DNA of 51,694 nt from Fibrobacteria bacterium AD312 (lineage in GTDB: Bacteria > Fibrobacterota > Fibrobacteria > Fibrobacterales > Fibrobacteraceae), in assembly GCA_001462345.1 (NCBI GenBank), contig LIUM01000043.1, positions 1 to 51,694 of the forward strand, given 5' to 3'. The first letter of the stretch is position 1. Every line of letters starts with the position of its first letter. The notes under the pieces were generated by a model. It saw only the letters and a list, made by a program, of their open reading frames with translations. It searched no databases and was not told the origin of the DNA. Below, one piece after another: positions 282 through 40,167 of this stretch. The translations under genes and the position numbers were made by a program.

Positions 282-3200
282 TTAAGGAGTTTTTGAAATT
301 TCTAAAGCCATTTTTTTAATGCTAGTGAAATCCCATTTACCACTTCCTAATTTTGGAATAGCAGGTACTTGATACACTTTTCCAGGAATCATCAACGGCG
401 GAATTCCTGATTTACGAAGAGCCATAGAAACTGTATGAGCATCTTTTTCTCCAACATACAGTAAAACAATACGTTCCCCTTTCACTTCATCTGGTATTGA
501 AGTCGAAACAAATTCGCAACCATCCAGAATTTTAGTATCACTCACACGAAGATCGACTGCCCCAAGACTTACCATTTCTCCACCTAGTTTGGCAAAACGG
601 CTGTAGCGATCCACAATAGTTAAGAAGCCATCTTGATCCACAAAGGCTTTGTCTCCCGTGCGATACCAACGTTTCCCATCAAGTACAATTACAGCTTCGT
701 CTGTTTTTTCGGGCTCTTTATAATACCCTTTCATCACTTGAGGGCCACCAATCAAAGCCATGCCTTCTTCACCGACAGGAAGATCTTTATTCGTGATTGG
801 ATCGACAATTCGAAGTCTTGTACCAGGCATAGGCATACCGACACTACCCATCTCGTGACATTTTTCCATACTTAAGAAGTCATCTAACAAAATATTGGCG
901 GCATTCATTGTAGCCACTGGTGTGGTTTCAGTACAGCCATAAGCTTCATACACTTCTTTACCAAATTTTAGCCTAAATGCTTCTCTAAGTTCTGGACGCA
1001 TTTTTTCAGCACCAGCAAGCACAAGTCTCATGTAATCTAAACACATGGGATGGACCCAACGGTTCACCGTAAATGCCCTTAAAAAAGTTGGTGTACCCAT
1101 TAATATGGTTGCTTTAAATTCTGCGCAAACACGTGCCATCGTTTTAATATCGGTTGGATCTGGGCATGGAATTGAAGGAACACCATTCACTAAACTCAGT
1201 AAAATATTAGCGGTTAAACCAAAAGAATGAAATAAAGGTAATTCTGAAAGAACCACATCTGTGGGGCGTAATCTGACTACGGCATCCGTTTGTAAAATGT
1301 TACAGATGAAATTTTTATGCGTCAACATGATTCCCTTAGGAACACCTTCTGACCCAGAACTAAATAAAATCGACGCCGTATCGGATAATGATGTTTTCTT
1401 GAAAAAGATTTTTTCAATTAAAAATGATGGTAAGAGCGTCGCTATCAATTGATAATAGCCCCAAGTCAATAAAGATTTTGAAGTAAAAAAATCATCCACA
1501 AAAATCAACTTGCAATCTTTCTTTATATTATTGAAAAGAGGATTTTTCTGGTATAATTTTTCAAAGAAATGACGTGAAGTAAAGACCGTTTTTACTTCTG
1601 TCTTTTGAATACAACTCATGATAACATCAGGAGAAGCACTGTAATTTAAATTCACGCTTGTTTTAGCACGAGAAATAAGAGCGATAAAGGAAGCAAAACC
1701 CTCTGGACAAGGAGGGAACATTAGCCCAACATTTTTTTCTGAACGAGTGACTTTCTTAATTAGACGAGTTAAGACTAATATTTTTCGTACAAACTCATAT
1801 CCAGAAAGGTGTTCACCTGTGAAATTGTAAATAGCCACCTTAAATCGAACTCGTGATTTCATGGCTCGAACAACAAGTGGAGCAATTCTTTTATAATAAG
1901 TGGCACTTTGTTCCCAAACGTCTATAGATAAATCCCGTAAAGCTTCTCTAATGTCATCTTCTTTAGTATTAGAAGGTAAAGGCTTTGCAAACCCTACTGA
2001 GATAAACCGAGCCTCTTTATTTGGGAACATGACGCAATCAGAAACATGGCTATAAGGAGAGCCCCACACGCCATAAATATAAAAAGGCACAATTGGAACA
2101 TTCAAATCACGAAGAGCTTCTGTATAATCAATAGAAAAACGGCTTATAAAAGGGGTCTTGGAGACTTCGCCTTCTGGGAAAATGACAACGGCTTTACCAT
2201 CTAATAAAGCTTGTTTAATTTTTTCCATGGATGGTTTAGTGTCTCTTCGATCAATAAAAATCATCCCAAGTTGTTTTCTAATCAGACGTGAATACCATCG
2301 TTCATAACGGCTTCGATTACTTGCAATAACAACAGGTCTTGGAGAAGCCATTTGTAACACAGCCCAATCAATAAAACTATAATGCGAGCCTACGAGTAAC
2401 ACTGGCCCAGTTTCTGGAATATTTTCTATGCCAATGGATTTTAGACGATAGCGAAAAAAGAAGAATAAACGAAGAAACGCTCTCAAAAGGGTTTGAGGTG
2501 TTTTAATTAGTGACAATGTAAACCCAATAAAAGCAATAATGGCAAGTGGAATAAAAAAGACTTCCATCGAAACGGAAATATAAGCCATAGCCAATAACTG
2601 AAGAGTAAGGAATGTAAATAAGAAAAGCATCTGCATCATGTTGGCGACAGCAATAATACGACCTGCTGTATCGGGCCTTGTATTATGTTGTAATAGAGCT
2701 TTCATGAGAGTAAAAAAGATACCTGCACAAAAACCAACCGCTCCATAGACAAGAGCTTGAATCAATTCATTTGAGATAAAGGCAGATAAGAACATCATCA
2801 CGGCAGCACCTAATGCCGACGTAGGAATAAGACCTGTTTCAATAAAATTTCTAGACGCTCTAGCTGCTGCAAAAAAACCAAAAACTAAACCAACAGCGGA
2901 AAAGAACAAGGTATTGCGTAAAACGCTAACAATATGCATCCCTGAGATGTCTTGTGATAATAGAATAAAGATTTGAGCTATTCCCCAGAAAACAGCAAGC
3001 CCAATGATGCAAAGCCTGAGAAGCGGATTAGACCACGTTGATGAGATGGTCCTTCTTGTAGACCTAAGCTTCATGTACTTCGAAAGAGGTGTTACTTCTG
3101 GAATTTTAAAAGCCGCAAGTGTCGCAATCACTCCTATAATTACAAAAAGCCAAGGTAATAAATCGTATTTAAAAATGGATGTTTCTTCTGGAGAAAACCC

Positions 3201-3674
3201 AATGGTGACAAAAGAGACAACCACAACGCCTAAAATCGAAATAGAAGATTGATAGGCATTAGATAAAGTTAATCGCTTTACCCCAAATAATTCTTTTTGA
3301 ATGCCTAATTTTGCAGGGCTTTCTATAGCAAGAAATATCGAAAACAATAAAATAAGGCCGTAAGAAACCCAACCAAAACCTAAAGTAAAACAAGTCGCAA
3401 TCAAAACTAACGTAATAGTCATAAATAGCGCAGAAAACGCCATGACCTTGTTTTTGGGGTATCGATTTGTGAAATAGCTCGCTGGAGCAAGCATAAAAAT
3501 ATAAGGCAATAATAAAAGCATCTGTAATAAAGCGCTTCTCCATAAAAAAGGAACGCCTGAATACGAAAAAGAGAGCCATCTTTGAAAAAAGATAAATAAG
3601 CCCATTTGCACAAAGGAAATACAGAAAACCGAAATAAAATAAGGTACCGCGTTTTTAACTATCAAAGTCTTCAC
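282..3674 (-). CDS. Fused MFS lysophospholipid flippase / PlsC acyltransferase / acyl-ACP synthetase (LplT-Aas type)
   Basis: This inner-membrane protein of 1130 aa has three parts. Residues 1-400 are a 12-helix MFS transporter resembling LplT. Residues 415-610 are a PlsC-type acyltransferase with the HX4D motif HYSFID at 431-436 and FPEGE near 499. Residues 630-1120 are an AMP-forming synthetase with the P-loop SSGSEGVPKG near 772, YGCTETTP, and YRTGD. By homology it would flip lysophospholipids inward and re-acylate them with fatty acids activated on ACP. E. coli uses two proteins, LplT and Aas. The longest frame starts at a GTG fused to its own GAGG; the TTG at 3665 has a better-spaced GAGG and may be the real start. 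It stands alone, divergent from aspS. Confidence 0.88.
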   Translation of the reverse strand: MKTLIVKNAVPYFISVFCISFVQMGLFIFFQRWLSFSYSGVPFLWRSALLQMLLLLPYIFMLAPASYFTNRYPKNKVMAFSALFMTITLVLIATCFTLGFGWVSYGLILLFSIFLAIESPAKLGIQKELFGVKRLTLSNAYQSSISILGVVVVSFVTIGFSPEETSIFKYDLLPWLFVIIGVIATLAAFKIPEVTPLSKYMKLRSTRRTISSTWSNPLLRLCIIGLAVFWGIAQIFILLSQDISGMHIVSVLRNTLFFSAVGLVFGFFAAARASRNFIETGLIPTSALGAAVMMFLSAFISNELIQALVYGAVGFCAGIFFTLMKALLQHNTRPDTAGRIIAVANMMQMLFLFTFLTLQLLAMAYISVSMEVFFIPLAIIAFIGFTLSLIKTPQTLLRAFLRLFFFFRYRLKSIGIENIPETGPVLLVGSHYSFIDWAVLQMASPRPVVIASNRSRYERWYSRLIRKQLGMIFIDRRDTKPSMEKIKQALLDGKAVVIFPEGEVSKTPFISRFSIDYTEALRDLNVPIVPFYIYGVWGSPYSHVSDCVMFPNKEARFISVGFAKPLPSNTKEDDIREALRDLSIDVWEQSATYYKRIAPLVVRAMKSRVRFKVAIYNFTGEHLSGYEFVRKILVLTRLIKKVTRSEKNVGLMFPPCPEGFASFIALISRAKTSVNLNYSASPDVIMSCIQKTEVKTVFTSRHFFEKLYQKNPLFNNIKKDCKLIFVDDFFTSKSLLTWGYYQLIATLLPSFLIEKIFFKKTSLSDTASILFSSGSEGVPKGIMLTHKNFICNILQTDAVVRLRPTDVVLSELPLFHSFGLTANILLSLVNGVPSIPCPDPTDIKTMARVCAEFKATILMGTPTFLRAFTVNRWVHPMCLDYMRLVLAGAEKMRPELREAFRLKFGKEVYEAYGCTETTPVATMNAANILLDDFLSMEKCHEMGSVGMPMPGTRLRIVDPITNKDLPVGEEGMALIGGPQVMKGYYKEPEKTDEAVIVLDGKRWYRTGDKAFVDQDGFLTIVDRYSRFAKLGGEMVSLGAVDLRVSDTKILDGCEFVSTSIPDEVKGERIVLLYVGEKDAHTVSMALRKSGIPPLMIPGKVYQVPAIPKLGSGKWDFTSIKKMALEISKTP

Positions 3675-3881
3675 CTCGAACGATTACATTTGGATCTCGA
3701 AAATAGAAAACTAAATTCATAAAATAATGACAGAGCTCTCTTTTTTTGAATCTAGGTTCATTGAAGAAATATTCATCAAAACCATATCATTCTCAAGCCT
3801 TTTGGGGGAGTAGCCCCTAAAATTTATTTTCCTTTATTCTATATTTGTTAAAAATTTTCCTCTTTTAAGGACTTTTATTGT

Positions 3882-5663
3882 ATGAAACGGACACATAGTT
3901 GTGGTGCTTTACGCCTAGAAGATGTTGGCAAAACAGTTTCTCTCGCTGGTTGGGTAGATCGCCGTCGTGATTTAGGCGGGGTTATTTTTGTGGATTTACG
4001 TGATAAATATGGAAAAACACAAGTGGTTTTTGATCCTGAAAGGAATCAAGAAGTTCATCAGATAGCAGATCAATTAAGAAATGAATATGTCATTACTGTG
4101 ACTGGAGTTGTTCAAAAACGTCCCGAAGGCATGGAAAACGATAAGCTCAGCACTGGTAAAATTGACGTTAAAATTGATAAAATCGAAATTTTAAATACCG
4201 CTGAAACATCTCCCCTAGCCATTAACGATCCTAAAGAAGAATCTAGAGAAAATGACGATTTGCGTTTACGCTATCGCTACCTAGACTTAAGACGTCCATG
4301 GATTCAAAAGAATTTGATCTTAAAAAGTCGCTTCTTAAAAGAAGTTCATAATTTCTTCCATGAAAATGGCTTTGAAGATATTGAAACGCCAGTCCTTTGT
4401 AAAAGTACTCCAGAAGGTGCTCGTGATTATTTAGTGCCATCTCGAGTCAATCCAGGAAGGTTCTATGCTTTGCCACAGAGCCCACAGCAATACAAACAAT
4501 TACTAATGATTGCGGGCATGGATCGTTACTATCAAATCGCCAAATGCTTCCGTGATGAAGATCTTAGAGCTGACCGCCAACCTGAGTTTACTCAAATTGA
4601 TGTGGAAATGTCTTTTGTGGATCAAAATGATGTGATGGAGTTATTCGATCGATTTGTTACTGAAGTCATGGGAAAAGTATGGGATTTCACTCCCCCATCC
4701 CCTATTCGCCGTATGACTTACGCCGAAGCAATGCTTAAATATGGTTCTGATAAACCAGATCTACGTTTTGATTTAGAAATTAAAGACGTGACAGAACTAG
4801 CTGGTAATACTGGTTTTGGCGTGTTCAATTCCGTGATGAAAGCCGGTGGAAAGATCCGTGGGCTTGCCGCTAAGGGTTGTGTTGATTTTACTCGTAAACA
4901 AATTGATGATTTGACTGCCCACGTGGCTCGTTATGGCGCTAAAGGCCTTGTTTGGATGCGCGTTAAAGAAAACGATGAAGTGGAAACTCAAGTTGGAAAG
5001 TTCTTTACAGTGGATCAACTCAATGCTCTTCGCGATGCTGTTGGCGCTAGCGCTTCTGACATGATGTTCTTTATTGCTGGATCAGAAAAAGTCGCCGCTA
5101 CAGCGATGGGTCAATTACGTCTTGAAATTGCACGAATCAAGGGTTTAATGAACCCAAGCGTTCGTGAATTTGTATGGATTACTGAATTCCCTATGTTTGA
5201 ATATAGCGAAACAGAAGGGCGCTACATGAGTATGCATCATCCATTCACAAGCCCAATGCCAGAACATTTAGAAATGATGCTTTCTGGGAACTTAAAAGAT
5301 TGCAATGCTCAAGCCTATGACCTTGTTCTTAATGGCGTTGAAATTGGCGGTGGATCCGTTCGTATTCATAAGCCAGACGTTCAAGAAAAGGTATTCCGCC
5401 TTCTCGGCTTAAACGAAGAACAAGTGAAAGAAAAATTTGGCTTCTTTGTCGATGCCTTTAAGTTTGGAGCTCCTCCACATGGTGGCCTTGCCTTTGGTTT
5501 AGATCGTGTAGTAGCTACTATGGAAGGGTTTGAATCGATTCGTGATTTTATCGCATTCCCTAAAAACACGAGTGCTTCTAGCCCAATGGATCAAAGCCCA
5601 AGCGAAGTCGATTTAACTCAACTTCAAGATATTCATATTTCTTTGAATTTGCCTAAAAAATAA
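3882..5663 (+). CDS. aspS: Aspartyl-tRNA synthetase
   Basis: This cytoplasmic class II synthetase of 593 aa has the usual bacterial layout: an N-terminal OB-fold anticodon-binding domain (GWVDRRRDLGGVIFVDLRD), a catalytic core (FRDEDLRADRQPEFTQID as motif 2, GLAFGLDRVV as motif 3) and an inserted GAD domain near 290-420. AAGGA precedes the ATG. Residue 31 is Leu, as in enzymes specific for tRNA-Asp, while residue 83 is Gly, as in the relaxed enzyme of Pseudomonas aeruginosa (positions recalled from that literature). Whether it also charges tRNA-Asn, making the GatB encoded nearby necessary for Asn-tRNA, therefore cannot be read from the sequence. Confidence 0.97.
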   Translation: MKRTHSCGALRLEDVGKTVSLAGWVDRRRDLGGVIFVDLRDKYGKTQVVFDPERNQEVHQIADQLRNEYVITVTGVVQKRPEGMENDKLSTGKIDVKIDKIEILNTAETSPLAINDPKEESRENDDLRLRYRYLDLRRPWIQKNLILKSRFLKEVHNFFHENGFEDIETPVLCKSTPEGARDYLVPSRVNPGRFYALPQSPQQYKQLLMIAGMDRYYQIAKCFRDEDLRADRQPEFTQIDVEMSFVDQNDVMELFDRFVTEVMGKVWDFTPPSPIRRMTYAEAMLKYGSDKPDLRFDLEIKDVTELAGNTGFGVFNSVMKAGGKIRGLAAKGCVDFTRKQIDDLTAHVARYGAKGLVWMRVKENDEVETQVGKFFTVDQLNALRDAVGASASDMMFFIAGSEKVAATAMGQLRLEIARIKGLMNPSVREFVWITEFPMFEYSETEGRYMSMHHPFTSPMPEHLEMMLSGNLKDCNAQAYDLVLNGVEIGGGSVRIHKPDVQEKVFRLLGLNEEQVKEKFGFFVDAFKFGAPPHGGLAFGLDRVVATMEGFESIRDFIAFPKNTSASSPMDQSPSEVDLTQLQDIHISLNLPKK

Positions 5664-5674
5664 TACGCTTTAAT

Positions 5675-5738
5675 TAATCCTATTCAGCGATGAATAGGAT
5701 TATGTAAAAAAAGAGTCCTTCAAAAGGGCTCTTTTTTT
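5675..5738 (+). terminator. Double hairpin after aspS, the second an intrinsic terminator
   Basis: Two hairpins follow the aspS stop. The first (5675-5702) is a perfect 12-bp stem TAATCCTATTCA with a GCGA loop, a GNRA tetraloop, and lacks a U-tract. The second (5705-5738) pairs AAAAAGAGTCC with GGGCTCTTTTT and runs into a T-tract, so it is a standard terminator. Confidence 0.8.
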
Positions 5739-5874
5739 ATGTAGTGAATTCAATCTAGTATTAAAATAAAATCAGCTTCTTCTTCGGTTTGTATTACAAC
5801 TAGTGAATCATTATTTATATTAGAGAAAAGTAAAATTGTATTAGTGGCGTGATTTAAGGAGAGATAAATCAAAA

Positions 5875-7959
5875 ATGAAACAAATAAATTTTTTAAAAGT
5901 ACTAATGTTTATGGCCATTATTCTTTGGCCGACAACAACACAAGCACAAACCTATTCAGGTGGAGATGGTAGTGCCGATTCTCCTTATGAAATTAAAACA
6001 ACAGCAGATTTGCAGGCACTTGCAGACTCGGTAAAAACTACAACTGATTACTCAAAAGGGAAGTTTTTTAAACTCACTGCTGATATTGATCTTAAAAGTA
6101 TATGTTACAAAGTAAATGGAACTTCAGAGAACGATAAAAGTTGGACACCAATAGGAAATTCCCTAAAACCATTTCAAGGCTCTTTTGATGGAGATGGACA
6201 TACTATCAGCAATCTTTATATCAATCCTAACTTCTATCTATCATCATCTAATTATCAAGGTTTGTTTGGATGTATTGGTGAAAACGGAACCATAAAGAAT
6301 CTCAACTTAGTAAACAGCATCGTAAGTGGAAGAAGTTATGTAGGTAGCGTTGCAGGGAATAATTACGGCATCATTTCATATTGTACCAATAGTGGCAGCG
6401 TAAAAGGACATGGTCTTGTAGGAGGCGTGGCAGGAGATAATAGCGGCACCATTTTAAACTGCACAAACAGTGGCAGTGTAATTGCTAGTGGAGACGTAGG
6501 TGGTATTGCAGGAGGAAATAATGACACCATATCATACTGCACCAATAGTGGCGAAGTAAGAGGAGATTATCGTGTAGGTGGCGTTGCAGGTGAAAATTAC
6601 GGCATCATATCATACTGCATCAATAATAGCAACATAAGCGGAAAAAATTATTCAGCTAACGTTGCAGGTGGTATTGTAGGAGATAATGAAAAAGGTACTG
6701 TTTCATACAGCACCAACAATGGCAAAGTAAGCGGAGACGAAAAAATAGGTGGTGTGGTTGGAAATAATTATTATAATAGCACTATTTTGAATTGTACAAA
6801 CAATGGAAGTATAAAGGGATTTACAAGTGTAGGTGGCGTTGCTGGACAAAATGAAGAACTTACTACCATATCATACAGCACCAACAATGGCAACATAAGC
6901 GGAACTTATCATGTAGGTGGCGTGGCTGGCTTTAATACTAATAATTGCGACATTTCATACAGCATCAACAGTGGCAACGTAAGTGGATACGATAAAACAG
7001 GTGGTGTAGTTGGAGCAAATCATTATTTAAGCGCCATTTCCAACTGCATCAATACTGGTACCATAAGTGGAGGAAGTTATGTAGGTGGTGTTGCTGGATA
7101 TAATACTTCTAGCCCCTTTTCATACAATACCAATAGTGGCAGCGTAAACGGAACTGGATATCATATAGGTGGTGTAGTTGGATATAATGCTGAGACCATA
7201 TCATACTGCACTAACAGTGGCAGCGTAAGTGGAGACCAAGATGCAGGTAACGTTGCTGGAGATAATATTGGTACCATTTCATATAGCTACTATGACAAAC
7301 AGATGTGTACTTTGCAACAGGCTGTAGGTAATGATGATACTCTGTTGAATGATGCGGCTAAACTCACCTCTGAAATGACTGGCATTGAATTAAAAACTAG
7401 CGAGACTGGCGATGGCTTTACTAAAGAACACTGGGTATTTACCGAAGGGCTTTACCCAATCCCAAAAGGCTTAGAAAACTCCGATGCAGCCATTGTAGCT
7501 GCTACTCCTATTTTCTTGTCAAATGAAGAAAACTACAGTTCTGTAACAACCGATTTTAAGGTTTCAACAGATAATGATGTAGTTTGGACTGCAGAACCTC
7601 AAACAAGTGTTACAATAAAAAACGATGGCAGTTTTAAATTAATAAAGCAGGGTGAAGTAACTCTTTATGCTGAAAAAAATGGTGTTATTTATAAATCAGT
7701 AATACTAAATCCTATTAAAACTAACGGTTTCGAAATTGTAAAGCAAAACTTTGTTGTACCTTATCTAAGATCAACTACAGAAGGAATTCAAATTGATTTT
7801 GGAAGCAAACCTCAAACACTTATTATTTATTCTCAAGATGGAAAACAAAAATTCAAACAAACTAGTATAGGCAAAACCTATATAGATTTAAGCTCGTTTG
7901 GAACAGGTAATTACATTGTCAGAGTCAATAATCAAGTCTATAGAATGGTAAAAAAATAG
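5875..7959 (+). CDS. Secreted GLUG-repeat protein with T9SS-like C-terminal domain
   Basis: This 694-aa exported protein starts with a signal peptide ending at TQAQT. Residues 140-480 are about fourteen GLUG-type repeats of the form GGVAGxNxGTISYCTNSGSVxG, which usually build a beta-solenoid stalk or adhesin. A bacterial Ig-like stretch follows (VSTDNDVVWTAEPQTSVTI). The last 65 residues (IIYSQDGKQKFKQ...GNYIVRVNNQVYRMVKK) resemble a type IX secretion sorting domain, predicting surface attachment. AAGGAG lies 13 nt before the ATG, a long spacing. The ligand is unknown. The repeats are near-identical at DNA level, so repeat number may vary between strains. The AT-rich, Bacteroidales-like style hints at transfer, unproven. 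Confidence 0.8.
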   Translation: MKQINFLKVLMFMAIILWPTTTQAQTYSGGDGSADSPYEIKTTADLQALADSVKTTTDYSKGKFFKLTADIDLKSICYKVNGTSENDKSWTPIGNSLKPFQGSFDGDGHTISNLYINPNFYLSSSNYQGLFGCIGENGTIKNLNLVNSIVSGRSYVGSVAGNNYGIISYCTNSGSVKGHGLVGGVAGDNSGTILNCTNSGSVIASGDVGGIAGGNNDTISYCTNSGEVRGDYRVGGVAGENYGIISYCINNSNISGKNYSANVAGGIVGDNEKGTVSYSTNNGKVSGDEKIGGVVGNNYYNSTILNCTNNGSIKGFTSVGGVAGQNEELTTISYSTNNGNISGTYHVGGVAGFNTNNCDISYSINSGNVSGYDKTGGVVGANHYLSAISNCINTGTISGGSYVGGVAGYNTSSPFSYNTNSGSVNGTGYHIGGVVGYNAETISYCTNSGSVSGDQDAGNVAGDNIGTISYSYYDKQMCTLQQAVGNDDTLLNDAAKLTSEMTGIELKTSETGDGFTKEHWVFTEGLYPIPKGLENSDAAIVAATPIFLSNEENYSSVTTDFKVSTDNDVVWTAEPQTSVTIKNDGSFKLIKQGEVTLYAEKNGVIYKSVILNPIKTNGFEIVKQNFVVPYLRSTTEGIQIDFGSKPQTLIIYSQDGKQKFKQTSIGKTYIDLSSFGTGNYIVRVNNQVYRMVKK

Positions 7960-30994: not shown

Positions 30995-31288
30995 ATGATT
31001 AGGCCTAGAAAATATTTGTTTGAAGGGCAATCAGGGGGTCTATATTCAGATAGAAGTATTCAAAATATATTGAAAAATGCTTGCCATAAAGCAGGTATAA
31101 CAAAACACACAACGGTTCATACATTACGACATAGTTTTGCCACTCACCTATTGGAAAAAGGGACAGATTTAAGGTATATTCAAGAGATATTGGGGCATAG
31201 TAGCTCCAAAACGACTGAGATTTATACTCATGTTTCCAAGAAAATGATTGGCACAATAAGGAGCCCTTTTGATGATTTGGACATTTAG
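30995..31288 (+). pseudogene. Tyrosine recombinase remnant (integron integrase C-terminus)
   Basis: Only 97 codons remain, about the last third of an XerC/IntI-type enzyme. They carry [15 protein letters not shown] (the HxxR box), [15 protein letters not shown] (His and the Tyr nucleophile) and a [12 protein letters not shown] tail, but the N-terminal DNA-binding domain and the first catalytic Arg are missing. Upstream DNA to the nifJ terminator is not homologous in any frame, so the gene was cut by a deletion or rearrangement near 30990. It points the same way as the cassettes, unlike most integrons but as described for Treponema denticola. The IntI-specific insert would lie in the lost part, so IntI rather than XerC is inferred from context. 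Confidence 0.8.
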
Positions 31289-31426
31289 AGAAAACATTCG
31301 TAATACTACCTTATTTGGCAGGATATGCGCAACTGAGTTTCGTAATATATGCTATTTTTGGGTGGATATGCGCAATCGGGGTAAGATGGAAATATACGCC
31401 ATATGGCGTATATTTGGGAGTTGTGC
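31289..31426 (+). other. Probable attI recombination site
   Basis: Between the integrase stop and the first cassette lie two direct repeats, GGATATGCGCAAC (31321) and GGATATGCGCAAT (31364), in a shared 20-bp context. The core GTTGTGC is at 31420-31426, where cassette 1 begins. A core plus two upstream direct repeats is the pattern of attI sites. Assignment rests on position and pattern. Confidence 0.6.
31390..31415. repeat. Perfect 26-bp palindrome in the attI region
   Basis: Bases 31390-31402 (AAATATACGCCAT) and 31403-31415 are perfect reverse complements with no loop, five bases left of the first cassette junction. It could be a regulator or integrase-accessory site, or a recombination scar. 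Confidence 0.85.
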
Positions 31427-31502
31427 GAAATGCTTGGGAGGCTACCGGCAACCATGAGAAGGTACATGTGCGAAGAAAAAGAAGAAAAAACTTGCCCGTC
31501 TT
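31420..31502 (+). repeat. Cassette 1 left inverted repeat
   Basis: Three blocks match the reverse complement of 33422-33510: 31420-31442 (23 bp, two mismatches), 31464-31472 (ACATGTGCG) and 31485-31502 (18 bp, AAAAAACTTGCCCGTCTT). Unmatched segments of similar length separate them. Together they bracket the restriction-modification genes. Confidence 0.85.
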
Positions 31503-31552
31503 GGATGCTCGCCGTCCATGGCTCGCAAAGATAGAAAGAAAAGGAGTTTTAC

Positions 31553-32185
31553 TTGAGTAAGAAAACCATTAAACAAAAAATTTTTGAGCTAGCTCAAAAA
31601 TATTCTGACACTCTAAAAACTAAAATTGATGAAAGAGTAATAGAAATGAAAAGTGACGACAACTCTCATTATCTTATTTATAGAGTTTTAGGTATTTCAA
31701 AAAAAGAAGGGGAAGATATTGATATTTATCAAAACAAAGGTCGTTTCTTATACAAATATGCTGGGAGTTTTTTAGAAGAAGCTGCAACACTTTGTTTTAA
31801 AGAAAAGTTTCCGAATGGTTCTAAAACACGAGTCGATAACAATCAAGGGCAAAGACCAAAAACCTATGAAATTGATTTTTTGAATAATAATGATGCTATT
31901 GAAATAAAATGGAGAGATGCAACTACAGATGGTGATCATATCACAAAAGAACATACCAGAGTTAAAGCTATCAAGTCTTATAACTATAAACCAATTAGAA
32001 TAATGTTTTATTATCCAAATAGAACACAAGCAATAAGTATACAAGAGACTCTGAAAACCTTATATACAGGTGTTTCTGGAGAGTACTACTCTGGTGATGA
32101 AGCTTGGGATTATCTAAAATCGTATACAGGAATAGATTTAAGAAAAATACTAGAAGAAATTGCTGATAAAAGAGGGGTCAAATAA
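31553..32185 (+). CDS. Type II restriction endonuclease, ApaLI-like
   Basis: This 210-aa protein is encoded just before and touching a DNA methyltransferase gene, the standard restriction-modification arrangement. A PD-(D/E)XK-like core is visible: YEIDFLNNNDAIEIKWRD, with Asp, Glu and Lys in the expected order. The sequence from KWRDATTDGDHITKEHTR through PIRIMFYYPNR recalls the ApaLI endonuclease family (GTGCAC), but this is from memory and the site is not proven. Translation starts at a TTG six bases after AAGGAG. It is the first cargo gene of cassette 1, next to the attI. Confidence 0.72.
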   Translation: MSKKTIKQKIFELAQKYSDTLKTKIDERVIEMKSDDNSHYLIYRVLGISKKEGEDIDIYQNKGRFLYKYAGSFLEEAATLCFKEKFPNGSKTRVDNNQGQRPKTYEIDFLNNNDAIEIKWRDATTDGDHITKEHTRVKAIKSYNYKPIRIMFYYPNRTQAISIQETLKTLYTGVSGEYYSGDEAWDYLKSYTGIDLRKILEEIADKRGVK

Positions 32186-33421
32186 ATGATTCAAGAAAAT
32201 TCAGTAAATTTTGGAAATAATATTGATCTATTGAAGAATGTTAAAGATTGTACTATACAATGCATTTATATAGATCCACCATTCTTTACACAAAAAGACC
32301 ATAGCTTATATTCAGAAAAACATAAGAAAGAAATGAAATTTTCAGATAAATGGATAAATCTTTCTGACTACCTAAAGTACATCAAAAACCTTCTTTCTGA
32401 ATGTAAGAAAAAATTAAAAGATGATGGAACCATATTTTTACATTGTGATAAAACAGCATCTCACCACATTAGAGTATTGCTTGATGAAGTGTTTGGAGCT
32501 GATAAGTTTATAAATGAAATTATTTGGACATATAGACGATGGTCAAATTCTAGGGATGGTTTACTAAACTCGCATCAAAATATTTATTTTTATGCTAAGT
32601 CTAAATCTTTTAAATTCAACAAATTATTTACTGATTACTCACCTACAACAAATATTGACCAAATACTTCAATCAAGGGAACGAAATGAAAATGGAAAATC
32701 CATTTATCAAACAGATACAAATGGTAATGTAATTCTAGGAAAAGAAAAGAAAGGCGTTCCACTTTCAGATGTTTGGGAAATACCATATCTTAACCCAAAA
32801 GCAAAAGAACGTGTTGGGTATCCAACTCAGAAACCATATCTTTTACTTAAGCAGATTATAGAGATTTCAACAAGCGAAGGTGATATTGTACTAGATCCTT
32901 GCTGTGGAAGTGGTACAACATGTGTGACCGCAAAATTACTTAATCGGAAGTATATTGGAATTGATATTTCTAATGAAGCTATAGATATATCTAAAAGCCG
33001 TTTAGATAATCCAGTTGTTACAAGTTCTGCTTTACTTAAAAACGGAAAAGAGGATTATTACAATCAAGACATTTATAAAGTGCCCTACTTAGAAATTTTA
33101 AATGCTATTCCTGTCCAGAGGAATAAAGGAATTGATGGATTTCTTAAGGAATATTTTAATAACAAACCCGTTGCAGTGAAAATACAAGGACATAATCAAA
33201 CATTACAAAGTGCTGTTTCTGAGTTACTAAATAGCACACAATCTAAAAAATGTGAAAAACTTATTCTGATTAAAACTAACGACAGCACAGAATTGTCACT
33301 TTTTAACAACGAGATAAAGGATGATAGGCTTACAATTGTTGACAGTTTTTCTTTAATAGCAAGCAAATTATTAGAAAATGATAAAAGCAATAGCCTCCGC
33401 ACATCCGTGTGCTCTGGCTAA
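32186..33421 (+). CDS. DNA N6-adenine/N4-cytosine methyltransferase of the restriction system
   Basis: This 411-aa beta-class methyltransferase (N4/N6 family) has the catalytic motif IYIDPPFF near residue 30 before the SAM-binding motif LDPCCGSGTTCVTA near 235, the circular order that defines the class. It protects host DNA from the adjacent nuclease. Its ATG follows the nuclease stop with no gap, so translation is coupled. About 120 C-terminal residues beyond the catalytic core may be the target-recognition part or a cassette-specific tail. The stop lies about 80 bases before attC1. Confidence 0.88.
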   Translation: MIQENSVNFGNNIDLLKNVKDCTIQCIYIDPPFFTQKDHSLYSEKHKKEMKFSDKWINLSDYLKYIKNLLSECKKKLKDDGTIFLHCDKTASHHIRVLLDEVFGADKFINEIIWTYRRWSNSRDGLLNSHQNIYFYAKSKSFKFNKLFTDYSPTTNIDQILQSRERNENGKSIYQTDTNGNVILGKEKKGVPLSDVWEIPYLNPKAKERVGYPTQKPYLLLKQIIEISTSEGDIVLDPCCGSGTTCVTAKLLNRKYIGIDISNEAIDISKSRLDNPVVTSSALLKNGKEDYYNQDIYKVPYLEILNAIPVQRNKGIDGFLKEYFNNKPVAVKIQGHNQTLQSAVSELLNSTQSKKCEKLILIKTNDSTELSLFNNEIKDDRLTIVDSFSLIASKLLENDKSNSLRTSVCSG

Positions 33422-33510
33422 AAGACGGGCAAGTTTTTTAAGCAGAAAGAACGCACATGTATAAAGAAGCATTAACGTATGAAGACCGCCTCCCAAGCAC
33501 ATCGCACAAC
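33422..33510 (-). repeat. Cassette 1 right inverted repeat
   Basis: This is the reverse-complement partner of 31420-31502. It begins right after the methyltransferase stop (AAGACGGGCAAGTT) and ends with the attC1 R'' GCACAAC. Confidence 0.85.
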
Positions 33511-33597
33511 AGCGGCTATATGGTTCCGTTTCGCTCCACCCAAATTTTTGCTCCACTGCGTTCCGCAAAAACTTCATATAGCCGCGGGACGTTAGTG
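33504..33597 (+). other. attC site of cassette 1
   Basis: R'' is GCACAAC (33504-33510) and R' is GTTAGTG (33591-33597). The inner arm AGCGGCTATATG pairs with CATATAGCCGC. R'' is complementary to the start of cassette 1 (GTTGTGC at 31420). The spacer resembles that of attC5. Confidence 0.9.
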
Positions 33598-33646
33598 GCA
33601 AGGCTAAGAACGACACCCAACGAAGTGAAAAGACGAAATAATAAAT

Positions 33647-34102
33647 ATGGCAACTCAACACTATACACATACTGACTATTACACAGCATCGTTGACAAGA
33701 TATGCTGACTTGACACACTTAAAAACAAACAGAAATTCAGCAATATTCTCTGTTTATACAGCAGGTGTTACCATAGAATGTATGTTTAGAGCATATATCA
33801 CAAAATACACGAAAGAATTTGACTCCAAACACGACTTAGAAAAATTATACACTAAATCTTTGCTTGGGTCTCAATTTGACACAGATGAAAAAGAACGATT
33901 GACAATTGCCGTGAAAAAAGCTAACAACATTTGGTCAAACGATTTGAGATATGCTTCTGAAAAAAGAATGAAACGAATAATAGCACACAAAAACATAAGA
34001 GCAAATCTTAATGATGTAAACGCATTTATTAACAGAGAGTATAATGCTATTTTTGATGCAACCGAATTAATAATTGAAAAAGGCAAAGAAAAATGGACTT
34101 AA
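33647..34102 (+). CDS. HEPN-like protein, cassette 2 gene 1
   Basis: This 151-aa all-alpha protein has two HEPN-like stretches. The first is AGVTIECMFRAYITKY with SKHDLEKLYTKS, where HEPN domains carry their AxxxE and HDL motifs. The second is RMKRIIAH, which fits the RX4-6H ribonuclease motif. HEPN proteins are often RNA-cutting toxins in abortive-infection and toxin-antitoxin systems. It overlaps the next gene by 10 bases, so the two are translated together. The assignment is by eye. It could also be a non-catalytic HEPN partner. Confidence 0.5.
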   Translation: MATQHYTHTDYYTASLTRYADLTHLKTNRNSAIFSVYTAGVTIECMFRAYITKYTKEFDSKHDLEKLYTKSLLGSQFDTDEKERLTIAVKKANNIWSNDLRYASEKRMKRIIAHKNIRANLNDVNAFINREYNAIFDATELIIEKGKEKWT

Positions 34103-34866
34103 TAGACAAAATAACAAAAATAATAAATGAGACTGAGGGCTTACAGCACCCCATTGTTGAATTGCGTTTTGACAATCAAAAAAATGTCGTTGGACATATT
34201 ACTGATGATAAATTTAAAAGCCTTTCTAACGAAGACAGTCAAAAATTAATTTGGACTTCCTTAAAGAAAAATTTGGAAGCAGACGAATTAATCAAAGTAA
34301 TTGCCATTTTCCACGAAACACCATTAGAAAGAGTTGAGAGACTAAACGGATACAAACCGAAAGATGCTCAAACATCAAATTTTTGGTTTCATCAAACACC
34401 AGAACTTGCCAAATATTGGCTTTTCATTGATGTAGCAAAATTTGGAAATGACTTCAAATCGTTCTTCCTTATCATAAGTGAGAAAAACAAAGTAAACAAA
34501 GGCTTGACTTTTGTATATAACAAAGAGGTTTTGGACTTTATGGAACTTGAACAAAACGAAATTTATGATGAACTTTATTCTAATACTTTTGGTAATGCAG
34601 AAGCGGAAGTCAAGTTAGATTTAATGAATAAGTATGAAAGTTTTCAATCTCAACAGTTGTACGGTAAAGCAAATATGTATTGGTACGTTTACGAAGATTT
34701 TAAATTGACACCAATAACTAAAAACCAACTTCTTTTTACTGAAAAAGAAATTTCAATGATTGAGAATGGATTTAAAAACATTGACAATTTCAGTATAAAA
34801 AATGACATTGAATTAGCAATGAAAAAATCTAAAATAATTAACCAAAATAAGGCGGAAATAAAATAA
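34093..34866 (+). CDS. Unknown protein, cassette 2 gene 2
   Basis: No family was recognised for this 257-aa protein. The first 80 residues (DKITKIINETEGLQHPIVELRF to VIAIFHETPLERVERL) have a loose BolA-like pattern, but that is weak. The middle holds many aromatics (NFWFHQTPELAKYWLFIDVAKFGNDF, YGKANMYWYVYEDF) and looks like a soluble alpha/beta domain. There is no signal peptide or membrane helix. It overlaps the HEPN-like gene and ends just before attC2, so the two make up the whole cassette and probably one system, such as effector plus sensor or antidote. Confidence 0.6.
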   Translation: MDLIDKITKIINETEGLQHPIVELRFDNQKNVVGHITDDKFKSLSNEDSQKLIWTSLKKNLEADELIKVIAIFHETPLERVERLNGYKPKDAQTSNFWFHQTPELAKYWLFIDVAKFGNDFKSFFLIISEKNKVNKGLTFVYNKEVLDFMELEQNEIYDELYSNTFGNAEAEVKLDLMNKYESFQSQQLYGKANMYWYVYEDFKLTPITKNQLLFTEKEISMIENGFKNIDNFSIKNDIELAMKKSKIINQNKAEIK

Positions 34867-34871
34867 GCCCA

Positions 34872-35007
34872 GCCACTAACAGCACCTACACGCAAGCAGG
34901 GGGTTCGTGCTTCGTAGGACAGGAAAGTGCTATATTTGAAGTTCAGTTCTTCGTAGGAAGTTCAGTGGTTATAATCCCTGCCTGCGTGTAGCTGCAAACC
35001 GTTAGCC
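34872..35007 (+). other. attC site of cassette 2
   Basis: R'' is GCCACTAAC and R' is GTTAGCC. The long arm AGCACCTACACGCAAGCAGG pairs with CCTGCCTGCGTGTAGCTGC (with small bulges). The apical part carries two CTTCGTAGGA direct repeats. Confidence 0.92.
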
Positions 35008-35039
35008 CCAATTTAGAAGAACTGAGAAACAATAGAATT

Positions 35040-35933
35040 ATGCCAATATACGTAGAGAAAAACGGAAGCTTAAAGAAACTGAAATCATATGCAATTGATA
35101 AGGAAAAGAAATTGCAGGAATTAGTAGAGCAAAACTTAATGGAAGTTTTGGATATGCATTTTCTTGCAACAGAATATACAACGACTTTCGGTGGCAGAAT
35201 TGATACATTAGCAGTTGATAGAAATGGAGCACCTGTAATTATTGAATATAAAAGAGGAAAGAATGATAATGTAATTAATCAAGCATTATCATATTTGAAA
35301 TGGTTACAAGCTCAAAAAGTGGAATTTTTTGAAATGTTAATAATCAAAACATTAGGAAATGAAATATCCAAAGAACTTAAAATTGACTGGCAAAACCCAA
35401 GAGTGATTTGCATTGCTGAATCATATAGTAAATTCGACATTGATACGGTAGAAGTTATTCCAATGCGTATAGAACTTTTAAAATACAGATATTACGAGAA
35501 TGGAATTTTCAGCCTGGAACCTCTAAATGCATCCGAACAAAAAACATCAAATAAGGAAACTGTTGATAATCCATCAAAATCACCGATTGACTATTCAGTA
35601 GAACAACACTTACAAAAACCATCAGAAAAAATAAAGAATATTTTTCAGGATTTACGCAGTCGGATTTTTGAAATTGACGAGAATATTAAGGAGAAAGCAA
35701 CTTCTATGTATATTGGTTACCGAGTGACGAAATCATTTGCAGAAATTCATATCGGTAAGAATCAGATTAAAATGTATCTAAGACCAATTGAATACAATGA
35801 CCCTAAAAAAATGGTAGAAAAGATTCCAGATGGTTATAATTGGACTCTAAATCATAGAGTTTACATAAAGGAAAAAGATGAGTTGGATTATATTTTTGGA
35901 TTAATTGAACAATCATATCAAGACGTTTTATAA
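35040..35933 (+). CDS. DUF5655 protein with PD-(D/E)XK nuclease-like core
   Basis: This 297-aa protein opens MPIYVEKNGSLKKLKSY and has GGRIDTLAVDRNGAPVIIEYKRG near 52-74, matching the D...ExK core of NucS/DUF91-like nucleases. NPRVICIAESYSKFD follows, then a C-terminal domain from about 200 (IKNIFQDLRSRIFEIDENIKEK) like DUF5655. The family is common in bacteria but has no settled function; a role in DNA cleavage is inferred from the core. It is the first gene of cassette 3. Confidence 0.78.
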   Translation: MPIYVEKNGSLKKLKSYAIDKEKKLQELVEQNLMEVLDMHFLATEYTTTFGGRIDTLAVDRNGAPVIIEYKRGKNDNVINQALSYLKWLQAQKVEFFEMLIIKTLGNEISKELKIDWQNPRVICIAESYSKFDIDTVEVIPMRIELLKYRYYENGIFSLEPLNASEQKTSNKETVDNPSKSPIDYSVEQHLQKPSEKIKNIFQDLRSRIFEIDENIKEKATSMYIGYRVTKSFAEIHIGKNQIKMYLRPIEYNDPKKMVEKIPDGYNWTLNHRVYIKEKDELDYIFGLIEQSYQDVL

Positions 35934-36218
35934 ATGGCACTTACAGAAATACAGAAACAGAAATTCTTGGAAATTTCAGGAATGAAATATGAAGGAAATG
36001 AAATGAAAGGTCAATTTTCAACGCAGAGAGCCTACAATGATGATAAATGGAAGGAGCATTCGCCTTGGATTTTTACATATGTTATAGAACCAGACTCAGG
36101 AAACTTAATCTGTGAGTTAGAGCATAGAATGACTAACAATCGGATTTTTGGGTGGGATAAAGATGGAAATGACCTATCAACAGAGATAACTGAAAAATAT
36201 TTTAAACCACATTGGTAA
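35934..36218 (+). CDS. Small hypothetical protein, cassette 3 gene 2
   Basis: The family is not recognised. The 94-aa protein is Trp- and Tyr-rich (DDKWKEHSPWIFTYVIEPDSGNL, MTNNRIFGWDKDG) and looks like a small beta-sheet domain. Its ATG abuts the TAA of the DUF5655 nuclease gene, so translation is coupled and a partner or immunity role is possible. It ends 9 bases before attC3. Confidence 0.6.
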   Translation: MALTEIQKQKFLEISGMKYEGNEMKGQFSTQRAYNDDKWKEHSPWIFTYVIEPDSGNLICELEHRMTNNRIFGWDKDGNDLSTEITEKYFKPHW

Positions 36219-36227
36219 TCAAAAACT

Positions 36228-36359
36228 GGGGCTAACAATGTATAAAAATAATAGCCGAAATAGTAGTAGATTCAAGGGATGTAGCCCGCATCAACTTTCT
36301 TGTAACTTGACATGAAAGTGGCACGCAGTCGGCTACTATTCTTATACTAAACGTTAACG
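36228..36359 (+). other. attC site of cassette 3
   Basis: R'' is GGGGCTAAC and R' is GTTAACG. The inner arm AATAATAGCCGA pairs with TCGGCTACTATT. The spacer phrase GTAGCCCGCA is shared with attC4. Confidence 0.9.
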
Positions 36360-36403
36360 CCAATATTAAGAATCAGCAACACATCTAATAACAGAAGAAT
36401 AAT

Positions 36404-38140
36404 ATGACTTTACCAGAACCTCAATCGACAACATTTTCGAATCTATTGAACGAAATTGAAAAAGGACAGATTAAAATACCACAGTTTCAACGAGATTTTG
36501 TGTGGGATATAAAGAAGTCTGCAAATCTTATGGATAGTATTATAAAAGGTTATCCAATAGGTACATTTATATTTTGGAAAACAAACGAAAGGCTACGTTC
36601 AGTAAGGAACATGGGAGATTTTAATTTGCCAGAGCCTGAGGATGGCGATTTTGTCAATTATGTTCTTGATGGACAACAGAGGCTTACTAGTTTGTTTGCA
36701 AGTTTAAAAGGACTTAAAATAAAAAGAGATGAGAATAAAACAGATGATTATGCAGAGTTATATGTTGATTTGGAAGCGAAAGAGGACGAGCAAATAGTTA
36801 TACTTGAACAAATAGACAAGAGTAAGCAAAGTTTAATACGGATTACAGATTTATTGTATGCAGAATTAACACAATTAGTTAGCTATCCTAGTCAATATCA
36901 TAAAACAATATCTGAGTACAAAAAAAGGATAGAATCATACAACTACTCAATTATCTTAATTAAAGAGGCTCCAATTGATATAGCGACTGAGATTTTTACT
37001 AGGATCAATGTTGGAGGTAAACCTTTGTCATTATTTGAGATAATGGTTGCAAAAACCTATGAGTACAAAAAAGTAACTGACTTAAACACAAATGAAGAAA
37101 AGATATATATATTCGATTTATCTGATAAATTCAAGATACTTATTTCTGATTTGACACCGGTAAATTATGAAACGATTTCTGACGCTACAGTTCTTCAAAC
37201 CGTAGCGATGATTTTATCAAAAGACTGCTCAAAAAAAGCTATTTTAAAGCTTGATAAATCAGAGTTTATAAATACTTGGCCTGCGGCCGTGGATGCGATT
37301 AAATCTTCGATCGAATACTTTCGAGGTTTCTATAGAATTCCTGTTTCACAATTACTTCCATATAATGCTTTAATTGTTCCATTTTCTTATTTTTTCTATC
37401 ATCACAAGGATAAGCCTACGGGTGATAAACAAAAATATCTTCAAGATTTCTTTTGGCGTTGTTCCATCAGTGGTCGCTATTCATCAAGCGTTGAAAGTAA
37501 ACTTGCACAGGATATTAAAAAAATTGACAATATTTTAGCAAATCAACTTCCGAATTATGAATGGTCTGTTGATACTTCAAAAGACTTCATTATAAAATAT
37601 GGTTGGTTCAATGCGGGTAAGGCTTTTATTAAATCTATTTTGAGTTTATATGCCTATCATCAGCCAAAATCATTCAATGACGAATCAATTGTAAATATTA
37701 GTAATTATTGGCTGAAGCAAGCAAATAGTAAGAATTATCATCATTTCTTTCCTCGTGCCTTTTTAAGAAAGCGGCAAGAAGAAGAGTTTTTCATTAATCA
37801 CATTGCAAACATTACGATTGTTGATGACTTTTTAAACAAAAGGGAAATAAGGGCTCAAGCTCCCTCAAAATATATGAAAAGATTCTTAAAACATAATTCA
37901 AATCTAAGTCAAACCATGTCAACACATTTAATTACTGATTTGGATGAATTCGGCATTTGGGAAGATGACTATAATAAGTTTTTTGACTGTAGGGTTAATG
38001 CAATATCTAAAGAATTAGACAAACGAATAATCAAACAAGATATTGATAAACAAAACATAACTGTGGTTTTGGAAGACGACGCAGAAGAACCAGTTGAACT
38101 TGAGTTAATTAACGAAGAAAATGGAGACTCAAATGAATAA
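36404..38140 (+). CDS. DUF262/DUF1524-type protein, GmrSD-like
   Basis: This 578-aa protein has an N-terminal DUF262 ParB-like domain (IKIPQFQRDFVWD, YPIGTFIFW, and the nucleotide-site motif VLDGQQRLTSL near 88) and a C-terminal HNH-like region (NYHHFFPRAFLRKR then HIANITIVDDFLNKREI). That layout is the single-chain form of GmrSD type IV restriction enzymes, also related to SspE and BrxU, which attack modified phage DNA. It fills cassette 4 alone. A phage-defence role is inferred from the family and the neighbours. Confidence 0.82.
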   Translation: MTLPEPQSTTFSNLLNEIEKGQIKIPQFQRDFVWDIKKSANLMDSIIKGYPIGTFIFWKTNERLRSVRNMGDFNLPEPEDGDFVNYVLDGQQRLTSLFASLKGLKIKRDENKTDDYAELYVDLEAKEDEQIVILEQIDKSKQSLIRITDLLYAELTQLVSYPSQYHKTISEYKKRIESYNYSIILIKEAPIDIATEIFTRINVGGKPLSLFEIMVAKTYEYKKVTDLNTNEEKIYIFDLSDKFKILISDLTPVNYETISDATVLQTVAMILSKDCSKKAILKLDKSEFINTWPAAVDAIKSSIEYFRGFYRIPVSQLLPYNALIVPFSYFFYHHKDKPTGDKQKYLQDFFWRCSISGRYSSSVESKLAQDIKKIDNILANQLPNYEWSVDTSKDFIIKYGWFNAGKAFIKSILSLYAYHQPKSFNDESIVNISNYWLKQANSKNYHHFFPRAFLRKRQEEEFFINHIANITIVDDFLNKREIRAQAPSKYMKRFLKHNSNLSQTMSTHLITDLDEFGIWEDDYNKFFDCRVNAISKELDKRIIKQDIDKQNITVVLEDDAEEPVELELINEENGDSNE

Positions 38141-38146
38141 GAAATA

Positions 38147-38282
38147 CTGGCGTTAACAAAAACTATATGTCAATTGCCGTTTCCGTGCTGACAACAAGCC
38201 GTGTAGCCCGCAACAACGGCGGTGCGGCTCGACAGGAAAGCAATCCGCAGTCGGCAACTGCATATAGTTCCGTCCGTTATAT
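38147..38282 (+). other. attC site of cassette 4
   Basis: R'' is TGGCGTTAAC and R' is GTTATAT. The arm AACTATATGTCAATTGCCG pairs with CGGCAACTGCATATAGTT (small bulges). Confidence 0.9.
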
Positions 38283-38311
38283 GCCATTGCCAGCTCAAAG
38301 GAGAACATTTT

Positions 38312-38761
38312 GTGAATTGTGAAATTTTAGTAATTGGAAAGAAACAAATCAATAGTATAAAAACATTATGGGAAAAATTAAATGAAATTCATTTAAAAGA
38401 CTCCACGCACTTTAAAGATCACTACAAGTATTTTACATTTGAAGAAAGATGTGAAAAGTTCGACGAAATTAAAAACAGTAACATCAGAATTGAAGTGATT
38501 ATTGATAATAATAAAACAGTTGGTTATTGCATATCAACAATAGAAAAAAATACAGGTGAAATTGATTCACTATTTATTGAGCAAGAATATAGAAAATTCG
38601 GGTTCGGGCGACAATTAGTTGAGAATAGCATAAAATGGCTAAAGGCAAATGAATGTAAAAAAATTATGGTTTCTGTTGCAGAAGGGCATGAATCTGTTTT
38701 TGATTTTTATAGAAAGTTTGAGTTTTACCAAAGAATGACTTATTTACAACTGAAAGCATAA
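38312..38761 (+). CDS. GNAT-family N-acetyltransferase, cassette 5
   Basis: GNAT enzymes move an acetyl group from acetyl-CoA to an amine. The CoA-binding motif A is clear: IDSLFIEQEYRKFGFGRQLVENSIKWL. A longer frame opens at 38222, but that lies inside attC4. The GTG at 38312 follows AAAGGAG with 8 bases between and lies just inside the cassette, giving about 149 aa (NCEILVIGKKQIN...). The substrate is unknown. The last codons lie just before attC5. Confidence 0.8.
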   Translation: MNCEILVIGKKQINSIKTLWEKLNEIHLKDSTHFKDHYKYFTFEERCEKFDEIKNSNIRIEVIIDNNKTVGYCISTIEKNTGEIDSLFIEQEYRKFGFGRQLVENSIKWLKANECKKIMVSVAEGHESVFDFYRKFEFYQRMTYLQLKA

Positions 38762-38778
38762 ACAGAACCGCTGGCAAC

Positions 38779-38873
38779 GGCATATAACAGCGAATATGAG
38801 ATTCCGCCTTCGGCTCCATCCAAATTGCCTACGCTTCGCTCCGGCAACTTCTCATATTCGCGAAACGTTGTGC
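38779..38873 (+). other. attC site of cassette 5
   Basis: R'' is GGCATATAAC and R' is GTTGTGC. The perfect arm GCGAATATGAGA pairs with TCTCATATTCGC. The central sequence (TTCCG, TTCGGCTCCA, CCAAATT) matches attC1. Confidence 0.92.
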
Positions 38874-38898
38874 GCAACCATGAAAGACAGCGACATCA

Positions 38899-39846
38899 AT
38901 GAAAATTAGAGACTTTAAACTTGAAGATTTGAATATTATGAGAATGTGGTTAGGACAAGACTACATTCAAAAATTTTTTGGCGACCCGCATGATTGGATT
39001 AAAGAAATATCTGAAAATATAAGTGCTGATTGGGTTAAATATTTCATTGTAGAATGTGGTACGCCAGTAGGTTTTCTTCAGTATTATGAAACAGATAAGG
39101 CACCACAAGGAGAATGGTCGAACGAACCAATCGGAACTGTCGGTATTGATTATCTCATAGGAGATATTGAATATTTAGGGAAAGGATATGGTTCAAAAAC
39201 CGTTCGTTTATTGGTTGACTTTATCAAATCAAAAAACGAGTATGATTACATTGTAGCTGACCCAATTGTAGAGAATGTATCATCCATAAAAGTGCTTGAA
39301 AATAATGGTTTTAAACAAAATGCTAATGGACTTTTTTGTTTGGATTTGACCAACACAGGAATAAAGATTTATAGAGCTACCAAACAAGATGTCGGTATGA
39401 TAACTCAGCTGTTTCGAGATACTATCCAAAATGTGAACTCAAAAGATTACCCAGCAGACGAAATAGATGACTGGTCATCATGGTGGACTGACCATGATAA
39501 ATGGCAGGAAAAAATTGAAAAACAGTATTTTATTAAAGCAATGATTGAAGACAAAACAGTTGGATTTAGTTCATTATCAACTGATGGATATCTCGATTTT
39601 ATGTTTACTCATAAAGATTACCAAAGACATGGAGTTGCAAGTAATTTGATAAGTAAGATTGAAAAAAAAGCAAAAGAACAAGGTAATGATTTGATATATT
39701 CGGATGTAAGCATTACTGCAAAAGGATTTTTTGAAAGACATGGATATTTTGTTGAAAAACAGCAATTCAAAAAGTCAAGAAACAAAGAATTGATTAATTT
39801 TAGAATGACAAAAAGAATAAATGGCAGCGCCCAACAACGGGTATAA
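38899..39846 (+). CDS. Double GNAT protein, N-terminal half AAC(6')-like
   Basis: Residues 1-150 follow the AAC(6')-I aminoglycoside acetyltransferase pattern: MWLGQDYIQKFFGDPHDW, PVGFLQYYETD, GIDYLIGDIEYLGKGYGSKTVRLLVDFI, VADPIVENVSSIKVLENNGF. Residues 155-300 are a second GNAT domain (MFTHKDYQRHGVASNLISKIEKKAKEQG, FFERHGYFVEKQQF). The 315-aa fusion is cassette 6. Acetylation of an aminoglycoside is a reasonable inference for the first half only; the second half could act on something else. The stop codon lies within attC6, so the site encodes the last residues (SAQQRV). Confidence 0.78.
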   Translation: MKIRDFKLEDLNIMRMWLGQDYIQKFFGDPHDWIKEISENISADWVKYFIVECGTPVGFLQYYETDKAPQGEWSNEPIGTVGIDYLIGDIEYLGKGYGSKTVRLLVDFIKSKNEYDYIVADPIVENVSSIKVLENNGFKQNANGLFCLDLTNTGIKIYRATKQDVGMITQLFRDTIQNVNSKDYPADEIDDWSSWWTDHDKWQEKIEKQYFIKAMIEDKTVGFSSLSTDGYLDFMFTHKDYQRHGVASNLISKIEKKAKEQGNDLIYSDVSITAKGFFERHGYFVEKQQFKKSRNKELINFRMTKRINGSAQQRV

Positions 39847-39958
39847 AACATTGGGGGTTAGTCTGTTATCATGCATTTGCACCCGTATCATGTTTCTTCT
39901 CGTGGGATACGGACGCGCCTCGCAATCCCCAACGTTTCATACACGCAAACCGTTATAA
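39827..39958 (+). other. attC site of cassette 6 (last recognisable)
   Basis: R'' is GCGCCCAAC, with one mismatch to the complement of the cassette start GTTGTGCGC. R' is GTTATAA. Arms AACATTGGGG and CCCCAACGTT pair. It overlaps the 3' end of the double-GNAT gene. Confidence 0.82.
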
Positions 39959-40035
39959 GCATTACCCCGCCAAGACAGAAAGAAGAAGAAGATAGAATGG
40001 AAATGTGGAAGACCTTAAAATCCCCGCGCCCCAAG

Positions 40036-40059
40036 AAGCCCGCCGTCCATGGCGGGCTT
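40036..40059. repeat. GC-rich hairpin at the array end
   Basis: AAGCCCGCC pairs with GGCGGGCTT around a GTCCAT loop. The phrase CGCCGTCCATGGC also occurs at about 31511, in the leader of cassette 1, so similar hairpin DNA marks both array ends. It may also act as a terminator before the tetR-like gene. Confidence 0.7.
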
Positions 40060-40167
40060 AAAGATAAGTAATAGAAAATTCATAATTCTATGCAAACACG
40101 CAGAATGCCCCATTAAGCTGGATTTCACCGCTTTCTAAGCTCATATCGCAAAATTACGGAAAAAGTA

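Follow-up and report, generated by a model that had tools for sequence, protein, structure and literature searches.

Why are the two genes of a restriction-modification (RM) system in the Fibrobacteria bacterium AD312 enclosed by a long, interrupted inverted repeat, and what might such a repeat do? In the window (the whole 51,694-nt stretch of AD312 DNA that was analysed), the left arm occupies 31420-31502 and the right arm 33422-33510, both on the + strand. The repeat, originally noticed at these same positions, is real: alignment of the two ends scores 77 against 41.1 ± 5.6 in dinucleotide shuffles (z 6.4; highest score among 1000 shuffles, 65). The match falls into three blocks, numbered 1 to 3 in the left arm and 3' to 1' in the right. 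According to the repeat search, the outer block (31420-31442 with 33488-33510) has 23 nt and is 91% complementary and the inner block (31485-31502 with 33422-33439) has 18 nt and is 100% complementary, in agreement with the lengths first proposed, whereas the middle block, taken initially as 9 bp, has 10 nt (TACATGTGCG at 31463-31472 and CGCACATGTA at 33452-33461). The spacers between the blocks are non-matching, as first noted, and their lengths, first given as similar, are 20 against 26 nt and 12 against 12 nt in the two arms. Arm-to-arm pairing that leaves the genes as a loop, the form in which the repeat was first imagined, is possible in the linear single strand of the cassette, where folding predicts 51 pairs across the genes, but an outer extension of an attC hairpin is the better reading of the arms.

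Both arms terminate exactly at the recombination cores of an integron. The left arm starts at GTTGTGC (31420-31426), the R' core that ends an attI-like site (31357-31426, + strand, with an internal hairpin at 31390-31415), and the right arm ends at GCACAAC, the R'' core with which an attC begins. Upstream lies the remnant of an integron integrase gene (30995-31288, + strand) encoding the last 97 aa, or last quarter, of the protein (TIGR02249 profile positions 239-315 of 315; PF00589). The attC (33504-33597, + strand) was located by a hairpin scan; its R'' core GCACAAC and R' core GTTAGTG each lie close to the consensus (RYYYAAC and GTTRRRY), and an L stem (L''/L') is present. Cassettes are cut between the G and the TT of R', here between G 33591 and T 33592, and the cassette therefore spans 31421-33591. 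The same G|TT start is common to copies at different places, the left edge being identical after a different flank in a Spirochaetaceae metagenome-assembled genome (MAG; locus L143). The suggestion that the restriction genes form a cassette at an attC, with the repeat tied to how the cassette was made up, is thus borne out.

Within the cassette, the left arm (the leader) is closed by a small palindrome, GCTCGCCGTCCATGGCTCGC (31507-31526), with related palindromes closing other leaders. It is followed by the gene for an ApaLI-like type II restriction endonuclease of 210 aa (31553-32185, + strand; PF09499, E 1.1e-94; PADLOC REase_II) and the gene for an N6/N4 DNA methyltransferase of 411 aa (32186-33421, + strand; PF01555, E 1.9e-55), the combination of a PF09499 endonuclease with an adjacent methyltransferase being that of ApaLI-type RM systems. 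The right arm (the trailer) begins immediately after the methyltransferase stop codon. The trailer opens with a small predicted hairpin, AGCCTCCGCACATCCGTGTGCTCTGGCT (33392-33419; related hairpins occur in the trailers of G066, G060 and C21), in which the final ~10 codons of the methyltransferase fall, and the match to the PADLOC methyltransferase model, 399 positions long, stops at residue 398 of the 411.

Five more cassettes (B-F) follow in one array (33591-39952, + strand), with attC sites at 34874, 36230, 38151, 38782 and 39829. The cassettes at 35040-35933 and 36404-38140 add genes for NucS_C/DUF5655 and GmrSD-type proteins, and putative defence genes are thus frequent in the array. Two related copies of the attI-like region occur in the AD312 genome (C45:32895 and C8:115579), each immediately before another cassette; all three attI-like sites are without an intact integrase. 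No intact integron integrase was found in the AD312 genome, where the remnant in the window is accompanied by a copy damaged by a deletion and interrupted by a stop (C11:94456-95028), and the integron system of AD312 looks decayed. The genome also contains 24 matches to the Fibrobacter paralogous domain TIGR02145, a domain recognised in just one of 14 control genomes, in keeping with membership of Fibrobacterota.

When the cassette is excised as a circle, the arms adjoin the attC on both sides, the right arm before it and the left arm after it. As single-stranded DNA, this circle junction is predicted to form one hairpin of ~250 nt (-62.8 kcal/mol, z -9.0, with no shuffle as good), compared with -20.0 kcal/mol and z +1.0 for the integrated attC followed by the next cassette. 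The folding that had been proposed as a check does predict arm-to-arm pairing in the linear strand, but the circular junction is the more telling fold. The geometry is not peculiar to the first cassette, and in each of the six cassettes of the window array the start resembles its own end (as reverse complement) more closely than any other end compared. An anchored comparison and shuffled partners were used because pair counts in folds with arbitrary partners were too noisy at 100-nt arms. With one cassette per sequence family (n = 11), matches between own partners cover 43 of 44 sites over positions 12-15 (shuffled-partner mean 19.0, P ≤ 5e-5) and 51 of 88 over positions 16-23 (mean 23.4, P ≤ 5e-5). 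Cassettes of class 1 and chromosomal integrons are alike in having G|TT bounds, an attC hairpin at the 3' end and R''/R' self-pairing that extends slightly past 7 nt (PMC2727003). However, the arms found here extend over 14-49 nt as a single block and over 81-89 nt once inner blocks are counted, whereas class 1 cassettes match their own ends mostly over 12-13 nt, with 8 nt in two cases and no consistent inner blocks, in a control set of 12 entries of which some repeat one gene. In a high-GC relative (L042), the own-end matches of the cassettes are limited to 8 nt.

A search for the leader and the trailer across 168 genomes of the phylum, the search originally called for, showed that the repeat flanks further cassettes with other genes. 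Leader, trailer and attC make up what is here called a frame. The frame of the window (type 1) was found with both halves around different cargo in G066 and G045, from other families of the phylum. In G066 it encloses a six-gene defence cassette with a single attC (L150 5477-12394, on C2), encoding a C5 methyltransferase, an SNF2 helicase, an EcoRII-N/B3-type protein, an MzaB-like GHKL ATPase, an HNH nuclease and Vsr; at 6.8 kb, this is very large by cassette standards. In G045 it encloses a metallophosphatase-STAND gene. Additional leaders or trailers came from G044, G055 and G056, the leader being present in G056 and the trailer in all three; G044 has two trailers, for which no matching leader was found. 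The attC is conserved along with the trailer, with sites 91-97% identical to that of the cassette in G066, G055, G056 and at C21 of the AD312 genome. Block 2 is gone on one or both sides in two related frames (G045 and G056), and one G056 cassette lacks it on both sides but retains altered versions of blocks 1 and 3. The last gene of the cassette continues into the trailer, in the same reading frame, in the window as well as in G066. Its final residues are therefore encoded by the frame, and from these sequences it looks as though the cargo was joined to a pre-existing trailer.

The same plan also recurs in frame types of unrelated sequence, namely one in G066 and G060, one at C21 and C45, and one around the ere(B)-like cassette in C45. 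In Falkowbacteria (CPR), an ApaLI-like RM cassette has a sequence-unrelated frame that combines an outer block of 49 nt with an inner block and hairpins. It is part of an integron-like unit in which a tyrosine recombinase gene lies directly beside the single attC cassette (L097, about 2879-3676 and 3804-6961), the TIGR02249 match of the recombinase skipping profile positions 182-236. A leader of a frame type other than type 1, 90-97% identical to the one in G066, was seen at 39952-40061 of the window and at C8:116774-116842; both copies sit at the far end of an array with no attC found behind them, leaving each as an orphan half-frame.

One position within the arms follows a regular pattern. 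Counted from the crossover G, position 11 reads A in the leader but G in the trailer (as reverse complement) for 16 of 17 cassettes, drawn from AD312, other genomes of the phylum, a Riemerella plasmid and the Falkowbacteria genome. In three of the 17, a one-base gap had to be set by hand, and excluding these leaves A/G in 13 of 14. The sites on either side pair almost always. None of the 12 class 1 control entries shows the A/G combination. The near-invariant A/G, the hairpin-closed leader and trailer and the reuse with other cargo all distinguish the present cassettes from those of class 1. The pair is A.C on the top strand and a G.T wobble on the bottom strand, and integron integrases use the bottom strand as substrate (PMC2727003). 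The bottom strand is predicted to be more stable than the top in all 12 junctions folded, to which inner attC features may contribute.

Taken together, the arms probably represent a long extension on the outside of the attC hairpin, split into two halves and belonging to one cassette (31421-33591), with a frame that is reused and would aid recombination. Alternatively, the outer 9-23 nt could represent ordinary attC self-pairing, with the inner blocks as functionless relics of cassette making, for example by fold-back hairpin copying. Such relics are unlikely but would accord with the 8-13 nt over which class 1 cassettes match their own ends and with the published 9-11 nt of attC self-pairing (PMC2727003), with the partial loss of inner blocks in G045 and G056, and with the continuation of the last gene into the trailer in both the window and G066, which pieces joined together would be expected to show. 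However, the blocks have been kept while the loops diverged, even between the window and L143, with endonucleases 96% identical, and unrelated frames repeat the same plan. The complete cassettes sharing one frame type are few, and covariation within a type is accordingly thin; the genomes are drafts.

It is considerably less probable that leader and trailer act at the RNA level, as untranslated regions that pair in the transcript to stabilise it or to control translation of the restriction genes. The arms do border the coding genes immediately on both sides, small hairpins are present in them, and restriction genes often need controlled expression. This reading was dropped, however, as there is no Rfam match and no excess of promoters or terminators, the recombination core is precisely where the match begins, the crossover is the point from which the A/G rule is counted, and one frame surrounds unrelated genes. 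Least credible of all is the proposal of an old transposon or miniature inverted-repeat element (MITE) that brought the restriction genes into an attC, which would suit a two-gene unit bounded by terminal inverted repeats but was rejected, there being no transposase gene between the arms and no target duplication visible by eye at 31420/33510, with outermost nucleotides that belong to the R boxes of the attI and attC sites and coincide exactly with the integron crossover points, other array cassettes showing the same geometry with sequences of their own, and cargo that changes while the attC remains joined to the trailer.

With the arms read as an extension of the attC hairpin, a mechanism can be proposed. 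In the free circle, the arms would flank the attC and pair in three blocks with unpaired loops between them, and in the single-stranded DNA of a circular or incoming cassette the long stem would nucleate and hold the folded attC. The conserved pair at position 11, A.C on the top strand and G.T on the bottom, would favour folding of the bottom strand. Integration, by cutting between the G and the TT of R', would then place the leader before the genes and the trailer before the attC. Once the cassette is integrated, the partner arm would be kilobases away, and excision would therefore have to rely on the short attC alone, favouring capture over later excision. A broader proposal is more tentative, and we would put it somewhat below an even chance: that reusable frames of Fibrobacterota-like bacteria and a Falkowbacteria genome, with leader and trailer pairing across the attC in the free circle only, the almost invariant position-11 A/G steering folding to the bottom strand and new cargo being taken up in between, may constitute a unit of cassette genesis and one-way capture. 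No precedent for the long multi-block frame, its reuse or the position-11 rule was found in the literature searched, which lay mostly outside subscription papers.

ApaLI relatives were found at 64 genome loci, most of them outside cassettes, and among the ApaLI-type relatives examined cassette ends occur only in L143 and L097, the others being without flanking repeats at an attC. At L143, the Spirochaetaceae MAG has the beginning of a nearly identical cassette, in which the leader is present and the endonuclease is 96% identical over 85 aa; the left boundary is the same as in the window and the loop between blocks 1 and 2 is different. In a Paceibacterota MAG (L098), an ApaLI-type RM region lies within a perfect 49-nt inverted repeat (3600-3650 and 7755-7805), at which no att sites are visible. 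Among viral contigs, the leader block gave 10 exact 16-mer matches, by our own estimate about the number expected by chance for a collection of this size, and the longer trailer gave none; the leader region was also unmatched in phage records.

Other cassettes of the genome have close relatives on plasmids. Across almost its whole length, the ere(B) cassette of Klebsiella plasmid NZ_CP044036.1 shares 87% identity with the erythromycin-esterase cassette of AD312 (C45:32997-34435; L005 2998-4436), and that of Aliarcobacter plasmid NZ_CP099557.1 is 99.5% identical to the AD312 cassette; both plasmid cassettes have similarly framed ends. In the Klebsiella plasmid, the ~620 bp before the ere(B) cassette are 95% identical to a cassette end in C21, attC included. 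From such sequence matches, Fibrobacterota looks like a source of the ere(B) cassette. Similarly, the attC of cassette B (34860-35007) is 87-92% identical to sites beside the macrolide-resistance genes ere(D) and estT on plasmids of Riemerella, Sphingobacterium, Bacteroides and Salmonella. Among the estT and ere(D) cassettes of Bacteroidota plasmids, four from Riemerella share the position-11 A/G, but the Riemerella ends match over shorter stretches, and no type-1 three-block frame was seen there.

How genes turn into integron cassettes is described as 'largely unknown' (PMC5371416), and a frame that recurs around different phage-defence genes in distantly related bacteria offers a handle on the question of how cassettes are built. 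Constant halves and an attC combined with changing genes suggest a concrete route of cassette genesis, in which cargo located between leader and trailer would be inserted or exchanged. Because the full hairpin forms in the circle alone, easy capture and rare excision of the cassette are suggested, and the position-11 rule provides a simple candidate for strand selection. This pool of cassettes is already present on clinical plasmids, on which the erythromycin-esterase cassette ere(B) has a frame of this kind.
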